From Panopea generosa (Eukaryota; Mollusca; Bivalvia; Adapedonta; Hiatellidae): a stretch of DNA of 64,000 bases. Location of the stretch: positions 43,973,769 to 44,037,768 of the forward strand of contig CM055903.1 of the NCBI GenBank assembly GCA_029582155.1. The letters run 5' to 3'. Positions 5,071 through 62,682 of the stretch are shown one piece after another. The notes below the pieces were generated by a model. It ran no database searches. It saw nothing but the letters and a program-made list of their open reading frames with translations, and was not told the DNA's origin. Position 1 is the stretch's first letter. Each line of letters opens with the position of its first letter. The translations under genes and the position numbers were made by a program.

Positions 5071-5385
5071 CGGCCCAGTTAGCTCAGTCAGTAGCACATC
5101 TGACTATATATCCAAGAGTTGTGAGTTTGAATCCACACTCAACCAGAGCCTCCGTGATGACTGATATACACCATTGTGTCTCATTGTCATTTCTCTCTCA
5201 CTGCTGATTCAAGGTTGATGTTATCAGTTACTTGCGGAGATGGGGTGTGCTTGAATACTGAACCTTTCAGGATCCCAGGAAACAGTAGTTATGTTAACTG
5301 ATCATCTTGTTAGCCTCTGATTGCATGAAAATGATGCTAAATATTCAATCTATCAATCAAACAATCAATCAATCAATCAATCCAG
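5071..5385 (+). repeat. SINE-B, near full length
   Basis: The tRNA-like head shows an A-box-like tagctcagtcagtagcac and a B-box-like gagtttgaatccac. Next come ctctcactgctgattcaag, the shared core (ttatcagttacttgcggag) and aggatcccaggaaacag. The tail is gatgctaaatattcaatc followed by (caat)n. Confidence 0.88.
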
Positions 5386-5741
5386 AAATATGTTTTACAA
5401 TAGATAACTTCTCTAAATGTATGTATTGTTGCATTACAAATACAAAGAAAAACAATACACCATTCATCAATATCCATTTTCTGCCCACCTTTAACATGAT
5501 AACCCAACCATAGAAAACTAGCCACATGTACAGTTATGTAGCAGTAAGTTCAAAAAGTGGCTTCATTTTATTTTATTCCAACTGTGAGTTTCCTTCCTGA
5601 GGTTAACTGTATGATATAGAACACTTTATAGGTGAGAGATTAGATGTTCCAACAGTTAGAACACTTTTATAGGTGAAATTGTTCAGAAACAAATGATTGA
5701 ATTTGCCACCTTCAACATGTGCTCACACTTGCAACATTCAT
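5386..5741. other. No feature seen
   Basis: Unique-looking sequence. A short phrase (agaacacttttataggtga) occurs in two versions near 5617 and 5660. No coding signal. Confidence 0.4.
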
Positions 5742-8677
5742 TCATGCTCCAGCACTAGACCGGGGAATCTATCCCACAACCATGTATGTGTGGGGAGGAT
5801 GCTCCACCACTAGACCTGGAAATCTGTCCCACAACCTTGTATGTGCGGGGAGGATGCTCCACCACTAGACCAGGGAATCTGTCCCACAACCTTGTATGTG
5901 CAGGGAGGATGCTCCACCACTAGACCTGGGAATCTGTCCCACAACCTTGTATGTGCGGGGAGGATGCTCCACCACTAGACCAGGGAATCTGTCCCACAAC
6001 CTTGTATGTGCAGGGAGGATGCTCCACCACTAGACCGGGGAATCTGTCCCACAACCTTGTATGTGTGGGGAGGATGCTCCACCACTAGACCAGGGAATCT
6101 GTCCCACAACCTTGTATGTGTGATGAGGATGCTCCACCACTAGACCGGGGAATCTGTCCCACAACCTTGTATGTGTGGGGAGGATGCTCTAGCACTAGAC
6201 AGGGGAATCTGTCCCACAACCTTGTATGTGTGGGGAGGATGCTCCACCACTAGACCGGGGAATCTGTCCCACAACCTTGTATGTGTGAGGAGGATGCTCC
6301 AGCACTAGACCGGGGAATCTGTCCCACAACCTTGTATGTGTGGGGAGGATGCTCCACCACTAGACCAGGGAATCTGTCCCACAACCTTGTATGTGTGAGG
6401 AGGATGCTCCACCACTAGACCGGGGAATCTGTCCCACAACCTTGTATGTGTGATGAGGATGCTCCACCACTAGACCGGGGAATCTGTCCCAAAACCTTGT
6501 ATGTGTGAGGAGGATGCTCCACCACTAGACAGGGGAATCTGTCCCACAACCTTGTATGTGTGAGGAGGATGCTCCACCACTAGACCGGGGAATCTGTCCC
6601 ACAACCTTGTATGTGTGAGGAGGATGCTCCACCACTAGACCGGGGAATCTGTCCCACAACCTTGTATGTGTGAGGAGGATGCTCCACCACTAGACCGGGG
6701 AATCTGTCCCACAACCTTGTATGTGTGAGGAGGATGCTCCACCACTAGACCGGGGAATCTGTCCCACAACCTTGTATGTGTGAGGAGGATGCTCCACCAC
6801 TAGACCGGGGAATCTGTCCCACAACCTTGTATGTGTGAGGAAGATGCTCCACCACTAGACCGGGGAATCTGTCCCACAACCTTGTATGTGTGAGGAGGAT
6901 GCTCCACCACTAGACCGGGGAATCTGTCCCACAACCTTGTATGTGTGAGGAAGATGCTCCACCACTAGACCGGGGAATCTGTCCCACAACCTTGTATGTG
7001 TGAGGAGGATGCTCCACCACTAGACCGGGGAATCTGTCCCACAACCTTGTATGTGTGAGGAAGATGCTCCACCACTAGACCGGGGAATCTGTCCCACAAC
7101 CTTGTATGTGCAGGGAGGATGCTCCACCACTAGACCGGGGAATCTGTCCCACAACCTTGTATGTGTGAGGAGGATGCTCCAGCACTAGACCGGGGAATCT
7201 GTCCCACAACCTTGTATGTGTGAGGCGGATGCTCCAGCACTAGACCGGGGAATCTGTCCCACAACATTGTATGTGTGAGGAGGATGCTCCAGCACTAGAC
7301 CGGGGAATCTGTCCCACAACATTGTATGTGTGAGGAAGATGCTCCAGCACTAGACCGGGGAATCTGTCCCACAACATTGTATGTGTGAGGAGGATGCTCC
7401 ACCACTAGACCGGGGAATCTGTCCCACAACCTTGTATGTGCGAGGAGGATGCTCCATCACTAGACCGGGGAATCTGTCCCACAACCTTGTATGTGCGAGG
7501 AGGATGCTCCACCATTAGACCGGGGAATCTGTCCCACAACCTTGTATGTGTGAGGAGGATGCTCCAGCACTAGACCGGGGAATCTGTCCCACAACCTTGT
7601 ATGTGCGAGGAGGATGCTCCACCATTAGACCGGGGAATCTGTCCCACAACCTTGTATGTGTGAGGAGGATGCTCCAGCACTAGACCGGGGAATCTGTCCC
7701 ACAACCTTGTATGTGCGATGAAGATGGTCCACCACTAGACCGGGGAATCTGTCCCACAACCTTGTATGTGCGAGGAGGATGCTCCACCATTAGACCGGGG
7801 AATCTGTCCCACAACCTTGTATGTGCGAGGAGGATGCTCCACCATTAGACCGGGGAATCTGTCCCACAACCTTGTATGTGCGAGGAGGATGCTCCATCAC
7901 TAGACCGGGGAATCTGTCCCACAACCTTGTATGTGCGAGGAGGATGCTCCAGCACTTGACCGGGGAATCTGTCCCACAACCTTGTATGTGCGAGGAGGAT
8001 GCTCCACCATTAGACCGGGGAATCTGTCCCACAACCTTGTATGTGCGAGGAGGATGCTCCAGCACTAGACCAGGGAATCTGTCCCACAACCTTGTATGTG
8101 TGAGGAGGATGCTCCACCACTAGACCGGGGAATCTGTCCCACAACCTTGTATGTGCGAGGAGGATGCTCCAGCACTAGACCGGGGAATCTGTCCCACAAC
8201 CTTGTATGTGTGAGGAGGATGCTCCACCACTAGACCGGGGAATCTGTCCCACAACCTTGTATGTGTGAGGAGGATGCTCCACCACTAGACCGGGGAATCT
8301 GTCCCACAACCTTGTATGTGTGAGGAGGATGCTCCACCACTAGACCGGGGAATCTGTCCCACAACCTTGTATGTGTGAGGAGGATGCTCCACCACTAGAC
8401 CGGGGAATCTGTCCCACAACCTTGTATGTGTGAGGAGGATGCTTTAGCACTAGACAGGGGAATCTGTCCCACAACCTTGTATGTGTGAGGAGGATGCTCC
8501 AGCACTAGACCGGGGAATCTGTCCCAAAACCTTGTATGTGTGGGGAGGATGCTCCACTGCTAGACAGGGGAATCTGTCCCACAACCTTATATGTGTGAGG
8601 AGGATGCTCCACCACTAGACTGGGGAATCTGTCCCACAACCTTGTATGTGTGAGGAGGATGCTCCACCACTAGACTG
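5742..8677 (-). repeat. 55-bp satellite derived from a tRNA-like SINE head
   Basis: About 53 head-to-tail copies of a 55-bp unit, for example 6601-6655 and 6656-6710. Read on the plus strand the unit runs ggggaatctgtcccacaacc, ttgtatgtgtgaggaggatg, ctccaccactagacc. This aligns over its whole length with the head of SINE-A at about 14840-14895 (gggatcgaacccacgacc, ttccgcatgtgaggcggatg, ctctaccactagacc). The A-box-like stretch (ggtctagtggtggagc on the minus strand) is kept in nearly all units. The B box has decayed (gacagattccc instead of gttcgatccc). Open frames on both strands inside it arise because the unit has few stops; 55 is not a multiple of three, so all frames cycle. Confidence 0.93.
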
Positions 8678-8756
8678 CAGCTGTTTTCTGCCCAACAGAA
8701 CATATGACATCACAAAATACATGTAACACACCCGTTACTGCTCACAATTTAGTTAA

Positions 8757-8893
8757 TACTAATGTTTTTGCTCGATTGCAAAGAAAGCTCAAACCTTATA
8801 TGAACCTGATAATTATGAACTGCTCTTGATTGCGCGTCCTGGGTAGAACCAGTATTGAGTGAGCGGTCAACACTCTATCAACTACACTACCAC
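8757..8893 (-). repeat. SINE-D, internally deleted
   Basis: Tail side gattgcaaagaaagctcaaa, then tatgaac, tgctcttga and cctgggtagaaccagtattg, then the head (gtcaacactctatcaac, tacactaccacc). The B-box portion is missing. Confidence 0.78.
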
Positions 8894-8970
8894 CTAACAT
8901 CTTCAGATGTAAAGCTTGGTATGCACATTTTTTGCTTCAAGCTCTTGCTATTTTTAATCTTCCACCCTAA

Positions 8971-9118
8971 ACAGTTAAACCTGCCTTAAGCAGCCAGTCA
9001 AGGGAGTGAGAAAAGGTTGTTGCTTAATACAGGTAAATTTATGCTGAAAGCATAGAATTAGGAATAAGCAAATGTGACAAGTGGCTGCTTAATTGAGTTG
9101 ACAGCTTACACAATTTTT
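8971..9118. mobile_element. MITE-F, right end decayed
   Basis: Starts acagttaaacctgccttaag, then cagccagtcaaggga, ctgaaagcatagaa and gtggctgcttaat. This is the MITE-F order, but the right inverted repeat is no longer recognisable. Confidence 0.7.
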
Positions 9119-9138
9119 GACAGAATATGATACAACAA

Positions 9139-9250
9139 GGTCCTCGGTAGTCAAGTTGTCTTAAGATGCCATCTTAAGATCAGTTACCTTTCACTGCCGA
9201 CGTTGTGGGTTTGAATCCAGCCTGTATGTTGAAAATTGTCCCTGCCACCC
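9139..9250 (+). repeat. SINE-C head fragment
   Basis: Head tcctcggtagtcaagttgtc, then ccatcttaagatcagttacc and a B-box-like gggtttgaatccagcctg. Truncated before the core. Confidence 0.65.
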
Positions 9251-9751
9251 TCCATTTCTTAGCACACACAAACTTAAATTATTTTGTTAATAATTTAACT
9301 CTGTATAATACAGTATCATACACCTGCTCATCTATCTGTACAGATTAAGAGTGATTTCCTATCATCATCATAAGCTTGGCACCGATCACGAATTTATGAA
9401 CTTATCTTTCAAATGTAACTAAGTTACCTATCTTTTTATCAGTGATCAAGACCCACATATCAACACTCGGGGAATATTACCAGGAAATCTTATTACGAAA
9501 ACATGAAAAATATATGACGATTATCAGATTCTGATGAAATGTAGATATCGGAATTTAGAGTTACATGCAAGTCTACCTCGGCATATATAAATATGAAAAA
9601 AAGATTATGTTCTGTAGATGCTTTCGCTGTATCTCACGATGTTTTACAAACTGAGGAAGCTTTCGCCAACTCTCATATCTTGCCATGAACATCCCTTACA
9701 TGCTGAAATTTATTTATTTTTGATACTCTTCCATCCAAGGCTCATAAAATT
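9251..9751. other. No feature seen
   Basis: AT-rich sequence with no recognised element and no convincing reading frame. Confidence 0.4.
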
Positions 9752-14165: not shown

Positions 14166-15180
14166 TCAATTAAAATCAATATTTGGAAGCCATAATGAAA
14201 ACAAAGTTTTCTTAAATTTAAAATACCTGTGCAAAACATTAAAATCAATGTGTGGAAGCCATACCGTATTAATTTTTTTCCCTTAAATATAAAATACCTT
14301 GGCAGTATTCTGCACAAGTATAAAGCTGTAATACGGAAAAAAAGTTTTCTTTAATTTGAAAATACCTGTGTAGTACATTAAAATCAATTTGCAGAAGTCA
14401 TAATGAAAATTTAAAATACCTGTTCAGTTTGTCGTTACCAAATGAGTACAAAGCCGTAATACAGAAAAAAGGTTTTCTTAATTTAAAATATGTATGCAGC
14501 ACAGGTACTACATGAGTACAAAGCCGTAATAAGGAAAAATGGTTTTCTTATATTTAAAATACCTGTGCAGTACATGTACCACATAATTAGTTGTAGTTGT
14601 AGTTGAATGGTGTTTAGCATCGCTTTCAACAATTTTTCAGTCATATCGCAACGGTGTCTACTTGAGACAGTATTCTGAGCGCTGTCACACTGGAGTATCA
14701 TGCCGCACACATGGTATGATACCCCACCCAGTTACATTATACTGACACCAGGCCGACCAGACCTAGAACTCTCCTCTAAATGCTGAGCGTCAAGCGAGGA
14801 AGCTTCTAGTACCATTTTTAAAGTCTTTGGTATGACCCGGCCAGGGATCGAACCCACGACCTTCCGCATGTGAGGCGGATGCTCTACCACTAGACCACGC
14901 CGCAGTTACAAAGCCCTAGTAGACATTTTTTTTTTTTTCTCCATTTCAAAATACCTGTCCAGTTTGTAACCAAATGAGTACAACGCCGTTATACAGAAAA
15001 AAAGATTGTCTTAATTTAAAATATGTAACGAGCACAAGTACTACACGAGTAAAAAGCCGTAATAAGGAAAAAAGGTTTTCTTATATTAAAAATACCTGTG
15101 CAGTACATGTACCACATATTAAAATTTAATACAAAGCCCTAGTACAGACATTCTTTTCTCCATTTCAAAATACCTGGGCA
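14166..15180. repeat. Ordered tandem array (unit about 70-80 bp, block of three)
   Basis: Nine or ten units share aaagccgtaatac, a poly(A), ggttttcttaatttaaaata and cctgtgcagtac. Three consecutive units (from about 14443) are repeated as a block from about 14970: the members ending gcagcacaggtac, gtacatgtaccacat and ctccatttcaaaatacc recur in the same order. A SINE-A interrupts the first block. Confidence 0.82.
14593..14907 (-). repeat. SINE-A, full length
   Basis: Minus-strand SINE-A. The tail is tgaatggtgtttagcatcgc and the body is accccacccagttacatt. The head has B box gggatcgaacccacgacc and A-box side gcggatgctctaccactaga, ending ccacgccgc. It sits inside the tandem array between units whose duplicate at 15105-15140 lacks it. 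Confidence 0.92.
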
Positions 15181-15224
15181 GAGCATACACCACATTAGCA
15201 AGCTAATCCAGCTAAAATAAATCA

Positions 15225-18520: not shown

Positions 18521-18654
18521 ATCTGATATCTGTTTTTATCAACTTACTTGAAATAATGTCTGTTGCTAATATCTCTAACCTATTTAAACATTTTACCAAC
18601 TGATATTAAGTACCATGTTCAATAAACAAGCTTCAAGTATATTTGTGTAAGATT

Positions 18655-18968
18655 TGTTGTTATATGGGGTTTAGCGTCACTTTCAACAATTTTTCAGTCC
18701 TATTGTGATGGTGTCTGCTTGAGACAGTATTCTAAACCCTGCCACACTGGAGTATCATGCCACAGACACATTGTATTATATCCCTCCCAGTCACATATAA
18801 TACTGACACTGGGACAACTAGACCTAGAACTATCCTCTTAATGCTGAGCACCAAGCCTAGAAGCTCCTAGTACCATTTTTACAAGTCTTTGATATGACCC
18901 GAATGGAAACTGAACACACAACCTTCTGCAAACAAGGCAGATGCTAAACCACTAGACCATCACTGCGG
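18655..18968 (-). repeat. SINE-A, full length
   Basis: Tail side atatggggtttagcgtcact, body gtctgcttgagacagtattc, tccctcccagtcacatataa, and the aatgctgagcaccaagcc block. The head is decayed (aactgaacacacaacctt; gcagatgctaaaccactaga). Confidence 0.87.
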
Positions 18969-20318: not shown

Positions 20319-20327
20319 TTAAATATT

Positions 20328-20612
20328 AGTTGTGAGGCATTGAGCGGCGCTTTTAATAATTTTTCAGTCATCATGACAGTGTCTTCTCGGGACTGTCACA
20401 CTGGAGTATCATGCCGCAGACATATGATACCCTACCAAGTCACATTATACTAACCGACCAGACCTTGAACTATCTTCTTAATGCTGAGTGCCAAGTGAAG
20501 AAGCATATGGTACTTTATTTTCAAGTATTTGATATAAGCCAGTCAGGGATCGAACCAACAACCTTACATATCATGAGAAGCAGATACTTGACCACTTGAC
20601 CAGGCTGCAGTT
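20328..20612 (-). repeat. SINE-A, diverged
   Basis: Tail decayed (gcattgagcggcgcttttaa). The body holds ggagtatcatgccgcagaca and accctaccaagtcacattat. The head ends gaccacttgaccaggctgca. Confidence 0.85.
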
Positions 20613-20949
20613 ACTCAGTCAGATATTGTTTTTGGTCAGTCTTGTCATAATCTTGTTTGACTCTCGGTCAGAAAAAAAACCTTATAAACACCCCTTTTAG
20701 ACATTAATGGAATGGTCTAAACAGAAGGATTGAAGAGTTTATTATAGAAATTAAGTAAACGTACCAAACAAATATTTTTTGTCGTTCACCCTAAAGCAGA
20801 TGTTAGTCAGAAGCATGATGTGACAGTGTTTCATACAGATATATTAATATCAGCACGTAGGTACACAATAAAACATGCTGTACAACACAGGTAACCGAAA
20901 CACAGCTTGTCAAGAAGCCAGGTTGTGTGGTAGTAGACATCAATCATGA
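20613..20949. other. No feature seen
   Basis: AT-rich spacer between SINE-A and the 29-bp array. Confidence 0.4.
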
Positions 20950-24911: not shown

Positions 24912-25160
24912 AACTGTAGTCAGTGCACCTAACCATAGTTCCTGGTATCTGTTAGGCCATTTACTAGTACCAGACACACCATATCTCTGAAAGTCATTGA
25001 CTTCTTACCCACATATTTAGAGGTGGGAGATTAATAGCCTTAAAAACAAATTTCATAACTAATCATCATAGAGACTGTGGCTGGGTAGGGATTCAAACTC
25101 TTGACCATTGAACTGACAGTCAGTCAGGCAGTGTAGCAGCATGAGCTGGCCAAGCCAAGC
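24912..25160 (-). repeat. SINE-B, old copy
   Basis: gtgcacctaaccatagttcc, taggccatttactagtacca, tcatcatagagactgtggct and gggattcaaactcttgacca follow SINE-B order on the minus strand. Confidence 0.75.
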
Positions 25161-27891: not shown

Positions 27892-28105
27892 TTAACCCTT
27901 TACTCCATAGATACGCGTTTTCTGCACCAATCACAGGCCTTTCAAAACAGTGCAGGAAGAGTTCAGATTGCTCGTGACAAGCAATCTGAACACTTCCTGC
28001 ACTGTTTTCCACTCTGTCAGTTAATATAAACATAATTCACCCAATAATTCCAAAGCCTCCTATATAAGAGGTCTCTAAAGGTGTCTATATGAAATAAAGG
28101 GTTAA
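27892..28105. mobile_element. piggyBac-like MITE, copy 1
   Basis: Bounded by TTAA at 27892-27895 and 28102-28105. Ends are ccctttactccatagat on the left and, read inward from the right, ccctttatttcatatagac. TTAA sites with CCCT-type ends are the piggyBac hallmark. Inside is a hairpin with 29-bp arms (27944-27972 and 27980-28008) with one mismatch and a 7-nt loop. The arms run aaaacagtgcaggaag to gttcagattgct. It is 206 bp without coding capacity. The copy at 40277-40492 is closely similar. Confidence 0.87.
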
Positions 28106-33740: not shown

Positions 33741-34285
33741 GATAGATCAGAATTAGGCTAAAGTTGGTCCATTCAATAGATCAGTTGTTGTTGTATGGTG
33801 TTTAGCGTCGCTTTCAACAATTTTTCAGTCACATCACGACGGTGTCTACTTGAGACAGTATTCTTAGCGCTGTCACAATAGAGGATCATGCCGCAGACAC
33901 ATGGCATGATACCCCACCTATTCACATTATACTGACACCAGGTCGACCAGACCTAAAGCTTTCGTCTAAATGCTGAGCGTCAAGTGGGGAAGCTTCTAGT
34001 ACCATTTTTAAAGTCTTTGGTATGACCTGTCTGGGGATCGAACCAACTCAATAGATCAGAATTAGGCTAAAATGGGCCGATTCAATAGAACATAATTAGG
34101 CTAAAACAGGCTGTTTCAATAGATCCTTATGCTAAAAATGGGCCTATTCTATAGTACAGACTTCGGCTAAAATTGGTCCAGTCAAAAAATCATAATAAGG
34201 CAAAAGTTGGCCCAGTCAATAGATCAGTCTTAGGTTTAAAATTGACGTAGTCAATAGATCAGAATTAGGTTGATTAAATTGGCCA
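33741..34285. repeat. About 37-bp tandem array split by a SINE-A
   Basis: Diverged units of the type tcaatagatcagaattaggc, taaaattggtccat occur once or twice before 33772 and about six times from 34048 on. The array is interrupted by the SINE described next. Confidence 0.75.
33773..34059 (-). repeat. SINE-A, 5'-truncated, perfect 12-bp target-site duplication
   Basis: tcaatagatcag at 33773-33784 and 34048-34059. The element runs from ttgttgtatggtgtttagcg through the body and stops within the B box (ggggatcgaacc), so the A box is missing. Removal of the element restores a continuous array unit. Confidence 0.9.
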
Positions 34286-36190: not shown

Positions 36191-36652
36191 GAGTGCGTAC
36201 CTCGATGTCTGAGTGCGTACCTTGATGTCTGAGTGCATACCTTGATGTTTGAGTGCGTACATCGATGTCTGAGTGCGTACTTCGATGTCTGAGTGCATAC
36301 CTCGATGTCTGAGTGCATACCTCGATGTCTGAGTGCATACTTCGATGTCTGAGTGTGTACCTTGATGTCTGAGTGCGTACCTCGATGTCTGAGTGCATAC
36401 TTCGATGTCTGAGTGCATACCTCGATGTCTGAGTGCATACTTCGATGTCTGAGTGCGTACCTTGATGTCTGAGTGCGTACCTCGATGTCTGAGTGCATAC
36501 ATTGATGTCTGAGTGCATACCTCGATGTCTGAGTGCATACTTTGATGTCTGAGTGCGTACCTTGATGTCTGAGTGCGTACCTTGATGTCTGAGTGCGTAC
36601 CTTGATGACTGAGTGTGTACCTCGATGTCTGAGTACATACATTGATGTCTGA
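36191..36652. repeat. 20-bp minisatellite, about 23 copies
   Basis: gagtgcataccttgatgtct unit, 20 bp, very regular. Variation is mostly gcg/gca and ctc/ctt/ttc. No stop occurs in any of the three minus-strand frames, which yields apparent proteins up to 207 residues with a 20-residue repeat (for example RHRGTHSDIKVCTQTSRYAL). Confidence 0.95.
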
Positions 36653-36654
36653 GT

Positions 36655-36868
36655 GGGGTCTTCCACGGCTGAGTGGTCTAAGGCCTCATCCCAAGACCAC
36701 TTGTCTCTATAATCACCAACACAGTTGAGGGTGTGAATCCGGATTGGTAAAAAAACTATATATAAGAACATTTGCCAGTGGTTCCATTGTTTTTAGAGTA
36801 AAAATTGATATGCATTTATATTAAGTTATGTAATGTGTTGAAAGTGGTGTAAAACCCCATTTAACTCC
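36655..36868 (+). repeat. SINE-C, internally shortened
   Basis: ggtcttccacggctgagtgg, tctaaggcctcatcccaaga, gggtgtgaatccggattgg, atttgccagtggttcc, and tail aaagtggtgtaaaaccccat. It directly abuts the 20-bp array. Confidence 0.82.
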
Positions 36869-40276: not shown

Positions 40277-40492
40277 TTAACCCTTTACTCCAAAGATACG
40301 CGTTTTCACGCACCAATCACAGAATGCCTTAGAAAACAGTGCAGGAAGAGTTCAGATTGCTCGTAATAAGCAATCTGAACACTTCCTGCACTGTTTTCTA
40401 CTCTGTCAGTTAATATAAACATAATTCACCCAATAATGCAAAAGCCTTCTATATGAGGTATCCAAAGGCATCTATATGAAGTAAAGGGTTAA
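40277..40492. mobile_element. piggyBac-like MITE, copy 2
   Basis: TTAA at 40277-40280 and 40489-40492. Ends are ccctttactccaaagat and, read inward from the right, ccctttacttcatatag. The internal hairpin has 32-bp arms at 40330-40361 and 40369-40400 with one mismatch and a 7-nt loop. Interior and ends closely match copy 1 at 27892-28105, so both came from one family. No coding capacity. Confidence 0.88.
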
Positions 40493-46175: not shown

Positions 46176-46508
46176 ACTTATATACTGTTGTATGGTGTTT
46201 AGAGTCGCTTTCAACAATTTTTCAGTCATATCACGACGGTGTCTACTTGAGAGAGTATTCTGAGCGCTGTCACACTGGAGTATCATGCCGCAGACACATG
46301 GTACGATACCCCACCCAGTCACATTATACTGACACCGGGCCGACCAGACCTAAAACTCTCCTCTAAATGCTGAGCGTCAAGCGAGGAAGCTTCTAGTACC
46401 ATTTTTAAAGTCTTTGGTATGACCCGGCCGGGGATCGAACCCACGACCTTCCTCATGCGAAGCGGACGCTCTAACACTAGACCACGCCGCGGTCCTTACT
46501 TAAATACT
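46176..46508 (-). repeat. SINE-A, full length, young
   Basis: Flanks acttatatact (46176-46186) and acttaaatact (46498-46508), a target-site duplication with one mismatch. The element is complete: tail tgttgtatggtgtttagagt, body gataccccacccagtcacat, B box gggatcgaacccacgacc, A-box side ctctaacactagaccacgcc. Confidence 0.93.
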
Positions 46509-49179: not shown

Positions 49180-49425
49180 TGGTGTTGTTGTCTACTTGAG
49201 ACAGTCTTCCAAGCTCTGCCTGACTATGCCTCAGACACCCAGTCACATTAAACTGACACCTGGCCCACCAGACCTAGAACTATGCTCTTAATGCTGAGCA
49301 CCAAACGAGGAAACTTCCAGTAACATTATTTAAGTCTTTGGTATGACCCGGTTGGGAAATAAACCCACTACCTTCGGCATGCAAGGCAGACCCTCTACCA
49401 CAAGACCATTCGCTGTGGTACATAT
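49180..49425 (-). repeat. SINE-A, tail decayed
   Basis: tgttgtctacttgagacagt, acacccagtcacattaaact, cacctggcccaccagaccta, and the head gcaaggcagaccctctacca, caagaccattcgctg. Confidence 0.87.
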
Positions 49426-57974: not shown

Positions 57975-58210
57975 CCATGAGATTTGTTCTACAGCCAGGA
58001 ACCTCCCACCTCTGACTATGTGGAGAAGTAGTCGGTGACTTGGTCATGGGCTTTGTTCTAAAGCCATGAATCTCCCACCTCTGAATATGTGGAGAAGTAA
58101 TCAGTGACTTGGTCATGGGCTTTGTTCTAAAGCCATGAATCTCCCACCTCTGAATATGTGGAGAAGTAATCGGTGACTTGGTCATGGGCTTTGTTCTACA
58201 GCCATAAATC
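57975..58210. repeat. 69-bp tandem repeat carrying a SINE core-like motif
   Basis: About 3.3 units of gggctttgttctaaagccat, gaatctcccacctctgaata, tgtggagaagtaatcagtga, cttggtcat. The last part resembles the SINE-B core (agtgggaaagttatcagtta, cttg). As 69 is divisible by three, a 23-residue repeat appears on the minus strand; it has no known counterpart. Confidence 0.88.
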
Positions 58211-58751
58211 TATGTGGTAGTAATCAGTGTTTTGCAAAGATAAAGTGTGTCTTATAACTGGCTAACAATACAAATCCTGTTGCCTGAAATGTTTCAAATA
58301 ATACCTGCATTTACCAAAAATCAGCAATTTTAAATCTTTACTGGATCCCCCCCACTAATATCCGCCTATGTATTTTATGAATAATAACAAGGAAGATTTT
58401 GAATTCTTTACTTGTTTTAAGCAGACATTGCATGTTGTACGACATATAAATCACCTGTAGTCTGCTGGCTCGTCATTCAGACAAACAAGATGACATACAA
58501 CAAAACATCATGTTAATATTCATTACACACCATCACCGGCTATACCTGGAATGCCATATTATATAATAATGACATTATATAACACTTTTGCCTATTCAAT
58601 TGATAAAATAATTTAGTTCAAATTCCTACGATATGGAATGCAGTCTCAACAGAATTGGTTTTAACTAAAATCCACCACATTATCATAATGTAACCATACA
58701 TTGTCTATATGACGTCCTGTTTGGGGAGTAAAACCTCAGACTGTGGTTGTA
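58211..58751. other. No feature seen
   Basis: No recognised repeat or coding signal. Confidence 0.4.
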
Positions 58752-62279: not shown

Positions 62280-62644
62280 CTAATTAATTAATTATCCCAT
62301 ATAGTGGTTAGTTCCTTGGTGACTAAATACTACATCAAGTACATTTGTAGTAATTGCAGCAGTGGTCTAGTGTTAGGGCACCTGCCTCACCTCGGAGGTT
62401 GTGGGTTCAATCCCAGGCCTGGTCATACTAAAGACTTGAAAATTGGTACATGTATAAGCTTCCTCGCTTGGAAGAGGATAGTTCTAGGTCTTGTCGACCC
62501 GGTGTCACCATAATGTGACTGGGTGGGGTATAATACCATGTGTCCGCGGCATGATAGTCCAGTGTTGCAGCTCTTGGAATACTGTCTCAAGTAGACATCA
62601 CGATATGGCTGGAAAATTGTTGACAGCGATGCTAAACACACCAT

Positions 62645-62682
<38 letters not shown>

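Follow-up and report, generated by a model that had tools for sequence, protein, structure and literature searches.

Tandem repeats that derive from SINEs have been described in several vertebrates. The part of Vassetzky et al. (2023; PMC10702118) drawn on here presents three SINE-derived satellites of squamates, sSat1, sSat2 and sSat3, with units of ~70 to 290 nt that come from the head, the body or the tail of the SINE, and a minor gecko variant, sSat3Ppi2, is said there to match the tRNA portion. The same part discusses the amphibian repeats Hy/Pol III (Hydromantes), Satellite 1/OAX (Xenopus), PolIII/TAN (newt) and Rana/polIII, and considers it inconclusive whether they are linked to SINEs; by that account, the newt repeat can be transcribed in vitro. 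For humans, the portion of PMC9659126 used here cites 7276 TE-derived minisatellites, of which 2663 are associated with Alu, and names tRNA-related regions among the sources.

The window analysed in this study, a stretch of 64,000 nucleotides of the Panopea generosa genome, contains a 55-bp minisatellite of 53.3 copies at 5744-8675 (minus strand; Tandem Repeats Finder, 95% matches), in agreement with the ~53 copies that an earlier sequence-only reading had counted. Its unit runs from the D arm to the T arm of the head of SINE-A, a family of ~320-bp elements that is also present in the window. As far as the sSats are characterised in the part of PMC10702118 drawn on, the array resembles them in that a tRNA-derived SINE found in the same genome supplies the unit, which covers less than the full SINE, and long loci are the more uniform ones. 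An sSat is recognised there by a unit shorter than the SINE and by at least four uniform middle units; here there are 53, and they are uniform. It differs from the sSats in being restricted to the D-arm-to-T-arm core and in occupying a single interior locus, whereas sSats occur at many loci with a subtelomeric tendency. According to the same part, most sSats have a longer terminal unit that reaches the SINE end, which is usual but not obligatory; the array has no such unit, whereas a second locus of the clam, L048, keeps its SINE context. With the human Alu-derived minisatellites, as outlined in the portion of PMC9659126 used, it has in common that a minisatellite arose from a SINE. The amphibian repeats, again as treated in that part of PMC10702118, are likewise tandem repeats with a tRNA-related part, but their units are longer (~200 to 360 nt where sized), whereas our array has a direct link to a SINE and a dead promoter.

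With its small size and clean structure, the array belongs to this known kind of SINE/TE-derived minisatellite. The sequence-only reading had considered a satellite born from only the promoter part of a SINE unusual. In view of the SINE-derived tandem repeats already in print, as reported in the consulted parts of PMC10702118 and PMC9659126, and of further SINE-derived arrays in this genome, that view is not supported. What is less usual is the confinement of the unit to the tRNA core, together with an intermediate stage within the same genome. The literature searched yielded no description of a mollusc minisatellite made from the head of a SINE alone, which does not prove that there is none.

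SINE-A copies lie in the window at 14590-14909 (minus strand), at 46180-46494 (minus strand) and 62350-62661 (plus strand), which served for comparison of the family, and at 18650-18959, 20320-20614 and 49180-49408. The head of the first copy, in which ARAGORN calls a tRNA-Val(cac) at 14834-14905, is the best match of the array unit in the window. In its tRNA-like nature the SINE-A head is unlike that of Alu, which derives from 7SL RNA and not from tRNA. Written on the minus strand, the unit (rotated) is GGTCTAGTGGTGGAGCATCCTCCTCACACATACAAGGTTGTGGGACAGATTCCCC. It comprises the tRNA-like core only, from the D arm with the A box through the T arm with the B box, and has no acceptor stem; hence it spans both boxes, rather than lying between them as had been supposed.

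When the unit is aligned with a SINE-A head consensus drawn up by eye, identity extends to 45 of 57 columns (score 51), and none of 5000 dinucleotide-preserving shuffles reached that score, the best attaining 35. The copy ending at 14909 alone gave 36 identical columns out of 44 (score 48; 0 of 5000 shuffles), while the other single SINE-A copies scored 31, 28, 28, 25 and 20, values reached by 0, 0, 1, 1 and 113 of 5000 shuffles, respectively. The unit and SINE-A disagree in roughly a fifth of the aligned columns, five of which form a block in the anticodon arm. The alignment that had been noticed from the letters alone is observed directly and goes beyond chance. Minisatellites are abundant in this genome, and a reversed control pattern for pairs of A boxes is also rich in matches (323 versus 517 for the true pattern), as might be expected if an unrelated minisatellite resembled tRNA-like sequence by accident. 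Such accidental similarity is refuted at the shuffle level, however, both for the whole unit and with its A-box 10-mer masked, when again 0 of 5000 shuffles of the remaining letters reached the score of the unit, and we regard its probability as negligible.

A search of the window with Rfam yielded no family that reached its gathering score. With permissive settings no row fell within the array, and the top-scoring row was a SINE-A head recognised as tRNA, at 25.9 bits versus a cut-off of 29. Weak Rfam matches to different families were also obtained for two similar long hairpins at 27939-28013 and 40318-40407 (AAACAGTGCAGGAAGTGTTCAGATTGCTT and its complement), perhaps members of one palindromic mobile element family. 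At 14187-15181 and 33742-34223, SINE-A copies are inserted into other minisatellites or border them (70-bp and 34-bp arrays).

Alternatively, the unit might descend directly from a tRNA gene or pseudogene, with no SINE involved. The limitation of the unit to the tRNA-like core and the absence of flanking SINE body would fit this origin; neither side of the array, including the sequence beyond 8675, gave a match to the SINE-A acceptor or body. Five host tRNA genes (Arg TCT, Arg TCG, Cys, Thr and Pro), however, scored only 14-21 on the better strand, against 43-51 for the best SINE-A heads. The comparison with shuffles and host tRNA genes that the sequence-only reading had proposed as a check came out for the consensus SINE-A head (51, versus a shuffle maximum of 35 and tRNA genes at 14-21). 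The highest of these genes, Cys at 21, is at the level of the oldest SINE-A copies; stretch L046, where SINE-A sequence is present and ARAGORN makes no call, scored 23. Young SINE-A heads score well above the tRNA genes scored, whereas old ones do not. When 284 kb plus stretch L009 were scanned by motif for tRNA-like heads whose B box is fairly intact, 53 hits were obtained, including a few overlapping duplicates; the best five distinct heads for the unit were all SINE-A copies (48, 43, 34, 31 and 28, the next being 25), among them the heads in stretches L025 and L028. A tRNA isotype with CACACATACAAGG or ACAGATT in common with the unit would favour a tRNA-gene source. As matters stand, and because a second locus repeats the same D-arm-to-T-arm segment within a SINE-A copy, we consider a direct tRNA-gene origin very unlikely, and judge from the alignments that the array unit very probably derives from a SINE-A head. 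Concerning the tRNA genes of this genome, ten top-scoring tRNA matches lie ~280 bp apart at C9:62676714-62679307, and a member of the C9 group at 62665606 is a tRNA-Arg(TCT).

This second locus was found with a pattern of the array junction that carried an intact B-box core, TTCGA. At up to 3 mismatches, the pattern gave four matches, all at C9:25806812-25806974, and its reversed control gave none. The locus is a SINE-A copy with two internal expansions (L048 1102-1513 and 1610-3000, continuing into L049 1-2500; C9:25806602-25811000). The first consists of eight head copies at spacings of 55, 54, 54, 54, 40, 40 and 54, in which the core TTCGA is present eight times and GGTTCGATGC six times. 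The last head copy continues directly into the SINE-A body, head and body together matching at 85% along 221 bp, so that the repeated heads are seen directly inside a SINE-A copy. The body contains at least 62.6 tandem copies of a 62-bp piece (SINE positions about 165-231), which extend past the stretch read. The head unit of L048 agrees with that of the window array in 41 of 55 columns, and the junction is common to both, although this agreement in breakpoints is partly built in because that junction was the search query. The proposal that the array originated in a tRNA-like SINE head is supported, and L048 strengthens it.

The distribution of the unit is very restricted. In a search that skipped very common words, a 110-nt dimer of the unit occurred at this locus only. 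Two further patterns, one of 31 nt across the junction and one of 30 nt inside the unit, each gave 52 matches genome-wide at up to 3 mismatches, and all 52 lay in the array in both cases. These searches covered 1.474 Gb, and relatives that have diverged past 3 mismatches would escape them. The window lies at 43.97-44.04 Mb (the array at ~43.98 Mb) on a contig of 70.8 Mb, away from its ends. The array is a single locus of 2.9 kb and does not belong to an abundant satellite family of long arrays; at the sensitivity used, the name satellite, given to it at first, is not appropriate for a repeat with one locus in 1.474 Gb. Its single locus, and a unit of tens of bp that comes from a dispersed element, are the marks of a TE-derived minisatellite. 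A search of the assembly for other arrays, which the sequence-only reading had also suggested, was negative for the same unit at up to 3 mismatches and positive in that it revealed L048 and further SINE-derived arrays.

The occurrence of the unit at only one place in the genome also bears on transport by a mobile element. The part of PMC5874043 drawn on describes bivalve mobile elements with a tandem-repeat core, and the array could be the core of such a CvA/pearl-like transposon that carried it along. Besides the single location, inverted repeats of at least 12 bp were absent within 5300-5800 and within 8600-9300, each stretch searched separately. We give this explanation only a slight chance, and prefer the in situ expansion of a SINE-A head.

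The B-box consensus GGTTCGANTCC has no match in the array at 0 or 1 mismatch and a single one at 2 mismatches, which confirms that the B box is degraded, as had been stated. In the units the TTC of the T arm is replaced by ACA, and GGACAGATTCC occurs 51 times per 53 units, a loss of the B box that is thus directly seen to be common to the copies. For the A box, the claim that nearly all copies keep the A-box-like 16-mer ggtctagtggtggagc is incorrect, as there are 28 exact matches for 53 full units. The A-box consensus TRGYNNARYGG has four strict matches in the array, and 36 when its first letter is left free (53 units).

The D-arm/A-box part (17 of 55 positions) contains 40 variant cells out of 901, of 13 variant types; the anticodon part (22 positions) contains 44 out of 1166, of 9 types; and the T-arm part (16 positions) contains only 4 out of 848, of 3 types, versus 84 out of 2067 elsewhere and 88 in total. 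Hence, the A box is not the conserved portion of the unit, which is a description and not a test of selection. From the low variability of the T arm no conclusion is drawn either, because the copies have a common history.

These counts bear on the suggestion that TFIIIC is attracted to rows of weak A boxes, which would then serve as an insulator or extra-TFIIIC site. The part of PMC5340127 drawn on portrays tRNA genes and extra-TFIIIC sites as organisers of chromatin, and the 36 A-box matches with a free first letter might be taken to fit such an element. Yet there are only four strict A boxes and no B box within one mismatch, and the D-arm/A-box part carries 40 of the 88 variant cells compared to 4 in the T-arm part, so that the A box is not the part that has been kept. 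The array is, moreover, a single locus, and five of the 13 long open frames of the window, compared with Pfam, revealed no convincing gene: four had no match, and the fifth crosses a 20-bp array at 36191-36655, where the sole row above the Pfam cut-off (PCC_BT) is unconvincing. The sequence gives no support to the TFIIIC binding or insulation raised in the sequence-only reading, as the A box is drifting and not more conserved than the rest, and a chromatin element of this kind seems highly improbable. Given the lost B box, the numbers of A-box matches and the way in which variants are distributed, we would reject a promoter or insulator role; the absence of function is what we infer, and the array is very likely a passive minisatellite that plays no Pol III or TFIIIC role. 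That it both stems from a SINE-A head and is passive in this sense we hold to be likely.

The order of the units retains information on how the array formed. Mean pairwise identity among the 53 units is 0.948. At each lag from 1 to 4, units resemble one another more closely than when their order is shuffled (0 of 2000 shuffles in each case), with a maximum of 0.965 at lag 2; the likeness of near and second-next copies is a direct observation. The ten outer units are more divergent from the consensus than those inside, with 3.1 versus 1.33 changes (3 of 10000 permutations). At the low-coordinate edge (5744-6018, minus strand), five units have a mean of 3.8 changes, against 1.33 in the inner 43, and at the high-coordinate edge (8384-8675, minus strand) the last five units, followed by a partial A-box piece, have a mean of 2.4. 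Likeness of neighbours combined with divergent outer units is what one would expect after unequal exchange or slippage in which some of the steps involved two units.

The ends of the array and its interior are about equally distant from the SINE-A head, with means of 42.6, 41.0 and 42.6 matching columns for the two ends and the inside. Since, in addition, the loss of the B box is common to practically all units, the founder had probably already changed, and the head that was amplified was probably already dead, its B box lost, before expansion. This founder head has to be postulated, because no single head near the unit sequence was found genome-wide at up to 3 mismatches in 30. In most copies the junction from unit to unit reads ATTCCC[C/T/A]GG-TCTAG. 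SINE-A copies have a T arm that ends in CCC[C/T/A]GG, or nearly so, and a D arm that starts with (T)GG-TCTAG. The junction of the array is hence consistent with a duplication whose two breakpoints each lie at a GG; a match of only 2-3 bp often arises by chance, and this one may have done so.

Based on these observations, formation of the array may have started from an inserted SINE-A head in which the B box had gone beforehand (TTC to ACA) and the anticodon arm had been altered. The segment that begins with the D arm and ends with the T arm would then have been duplicated in tandem, with GG at both breakpoints (...CCC[C/T/A]GG joined to TCTAGTGG...). This pair could have grown to ~53 copies through unequal exchange or replication slippage that often proceeded two units at a time, and the remaining SINE sequence would have been lost thereafter. 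We infer both this order of events and the GG breakpoints as their cause.

Tandem arrays are frequent in this genome. In a sample of 284 kb, consisting of the window and 22 stretches of 10 kb (L020-L041), two of which flank the window, 77 non-redundant arrays (period of at least 15, at least 2.5 copies), with the window array counted in, cover 40,835 of 284,000 bases. The units of 21 of the 77 match sequence outside arrays, compared to none of the 77 reversed units; several of the 21 are spill-over from the same or a neighbouring array and not transposon-derived. At 57976-58211 (plus strand) of the window lies a SINE-derived minisatellite of 3.4 copies, a 69-bp piece of a SINE-B-like body with a relative at 24991-25050 (80% over 60 bp). 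Another SINE-derived case is L027 6218-6410, where a 45-bp unit of 4.3 copies, covering the T arm and the start of the body, lies inside a recognisable SINE of another family with flanks that are SINE-like by eye. In a SINE-like stretch at L009 1400-1590 (C16:60293891), two tRNA-like heads, as read by eye, follow each other as T arm-GA-D arm, with no acceptor stem between them.

Pairs of the A-box 10-mer 46-70 bp apart gave 517 matches. The raw count was rejected as evidence, as the reversed pattern gave 323. By eye, the matches listed (C1 to a point within C5) fall into 21 loci, of which several consist of a single pair. One row per locus was compared to single-letter shuffles with the 10-mer masked, at a threshold of at most 5 of 5000. 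Among these listed matches, six of the 21 loci show similarity to the SINE-A head beyond the A box by their first rows, and seven when a later row is admitted. The seventh, C5:24031048, is doubtful, as it passes only with the later row (first row, 143 of 5000), and at C5:30402418 the later row fails, as does the first (4997 of 5000). The units of the six first-row loci span 66, 67, 69, 69, 66 and 25 bp, and that of C5:24031048 spans 48 bp. In unit length, six of the seven supported loci differ from the window array. At C3:27095749, however, two 54-bp units are listed along with 69-bp units, with the junction ATCCCTGG-TCTAG and breakpoints as in the window array; with the A-box 10-mer masked, the 54-bp row matches the head beyond all 5000 shuffles. 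The masked matches at several loci indicate that SINE heads turn into tandem repeats at several places, with varied unit ends.

Among the matches listed was also an array with a 28-bp unit, such as GGTCTAGTGGTAGAGCATCCCGCAGCAT, at C1:94174732-94176205, with an A box and no B box among those matches; TGGTCTAGTGG is found there, and some copies are one G shorter. In the masked test this array did not pass as a SINE-A head (254 of 5000 shuffles). As a candidate A-box array it is preferable to the 55-bp array of the window.

A broader explanation might be that tandem arrays have repeatedly been seeded by the tRNA-like head of a SINE. Its D-arm-to-T-arm core, with GG on either side, would have expanded separately in the window, at L048 and in part of C3:27095749, whereas at other loci the full head or pieces of it would have been amplified, possibly including the 28-bp unit on C1, and some of these, but not the window array, could be true A-box arrays that load or titrate TFIIIC. 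Taken as a whole, this scenario appears unlikely.

A SINE-A head amplified into a passive minisatellite, our preferred interpretation, makes the window array a clear example of the conversion of a mobile element into a tandem repeat, with no new function indicated. L048 and this array represent two stages of the path from SINE to minisatellite, the first within a recognisable SINE and the second free-standing. A process that is usually only inferred becomes directly visible in one genome, and this genome could serve to measure how often, and from which of their parts, SINEs seed tandem repeats.
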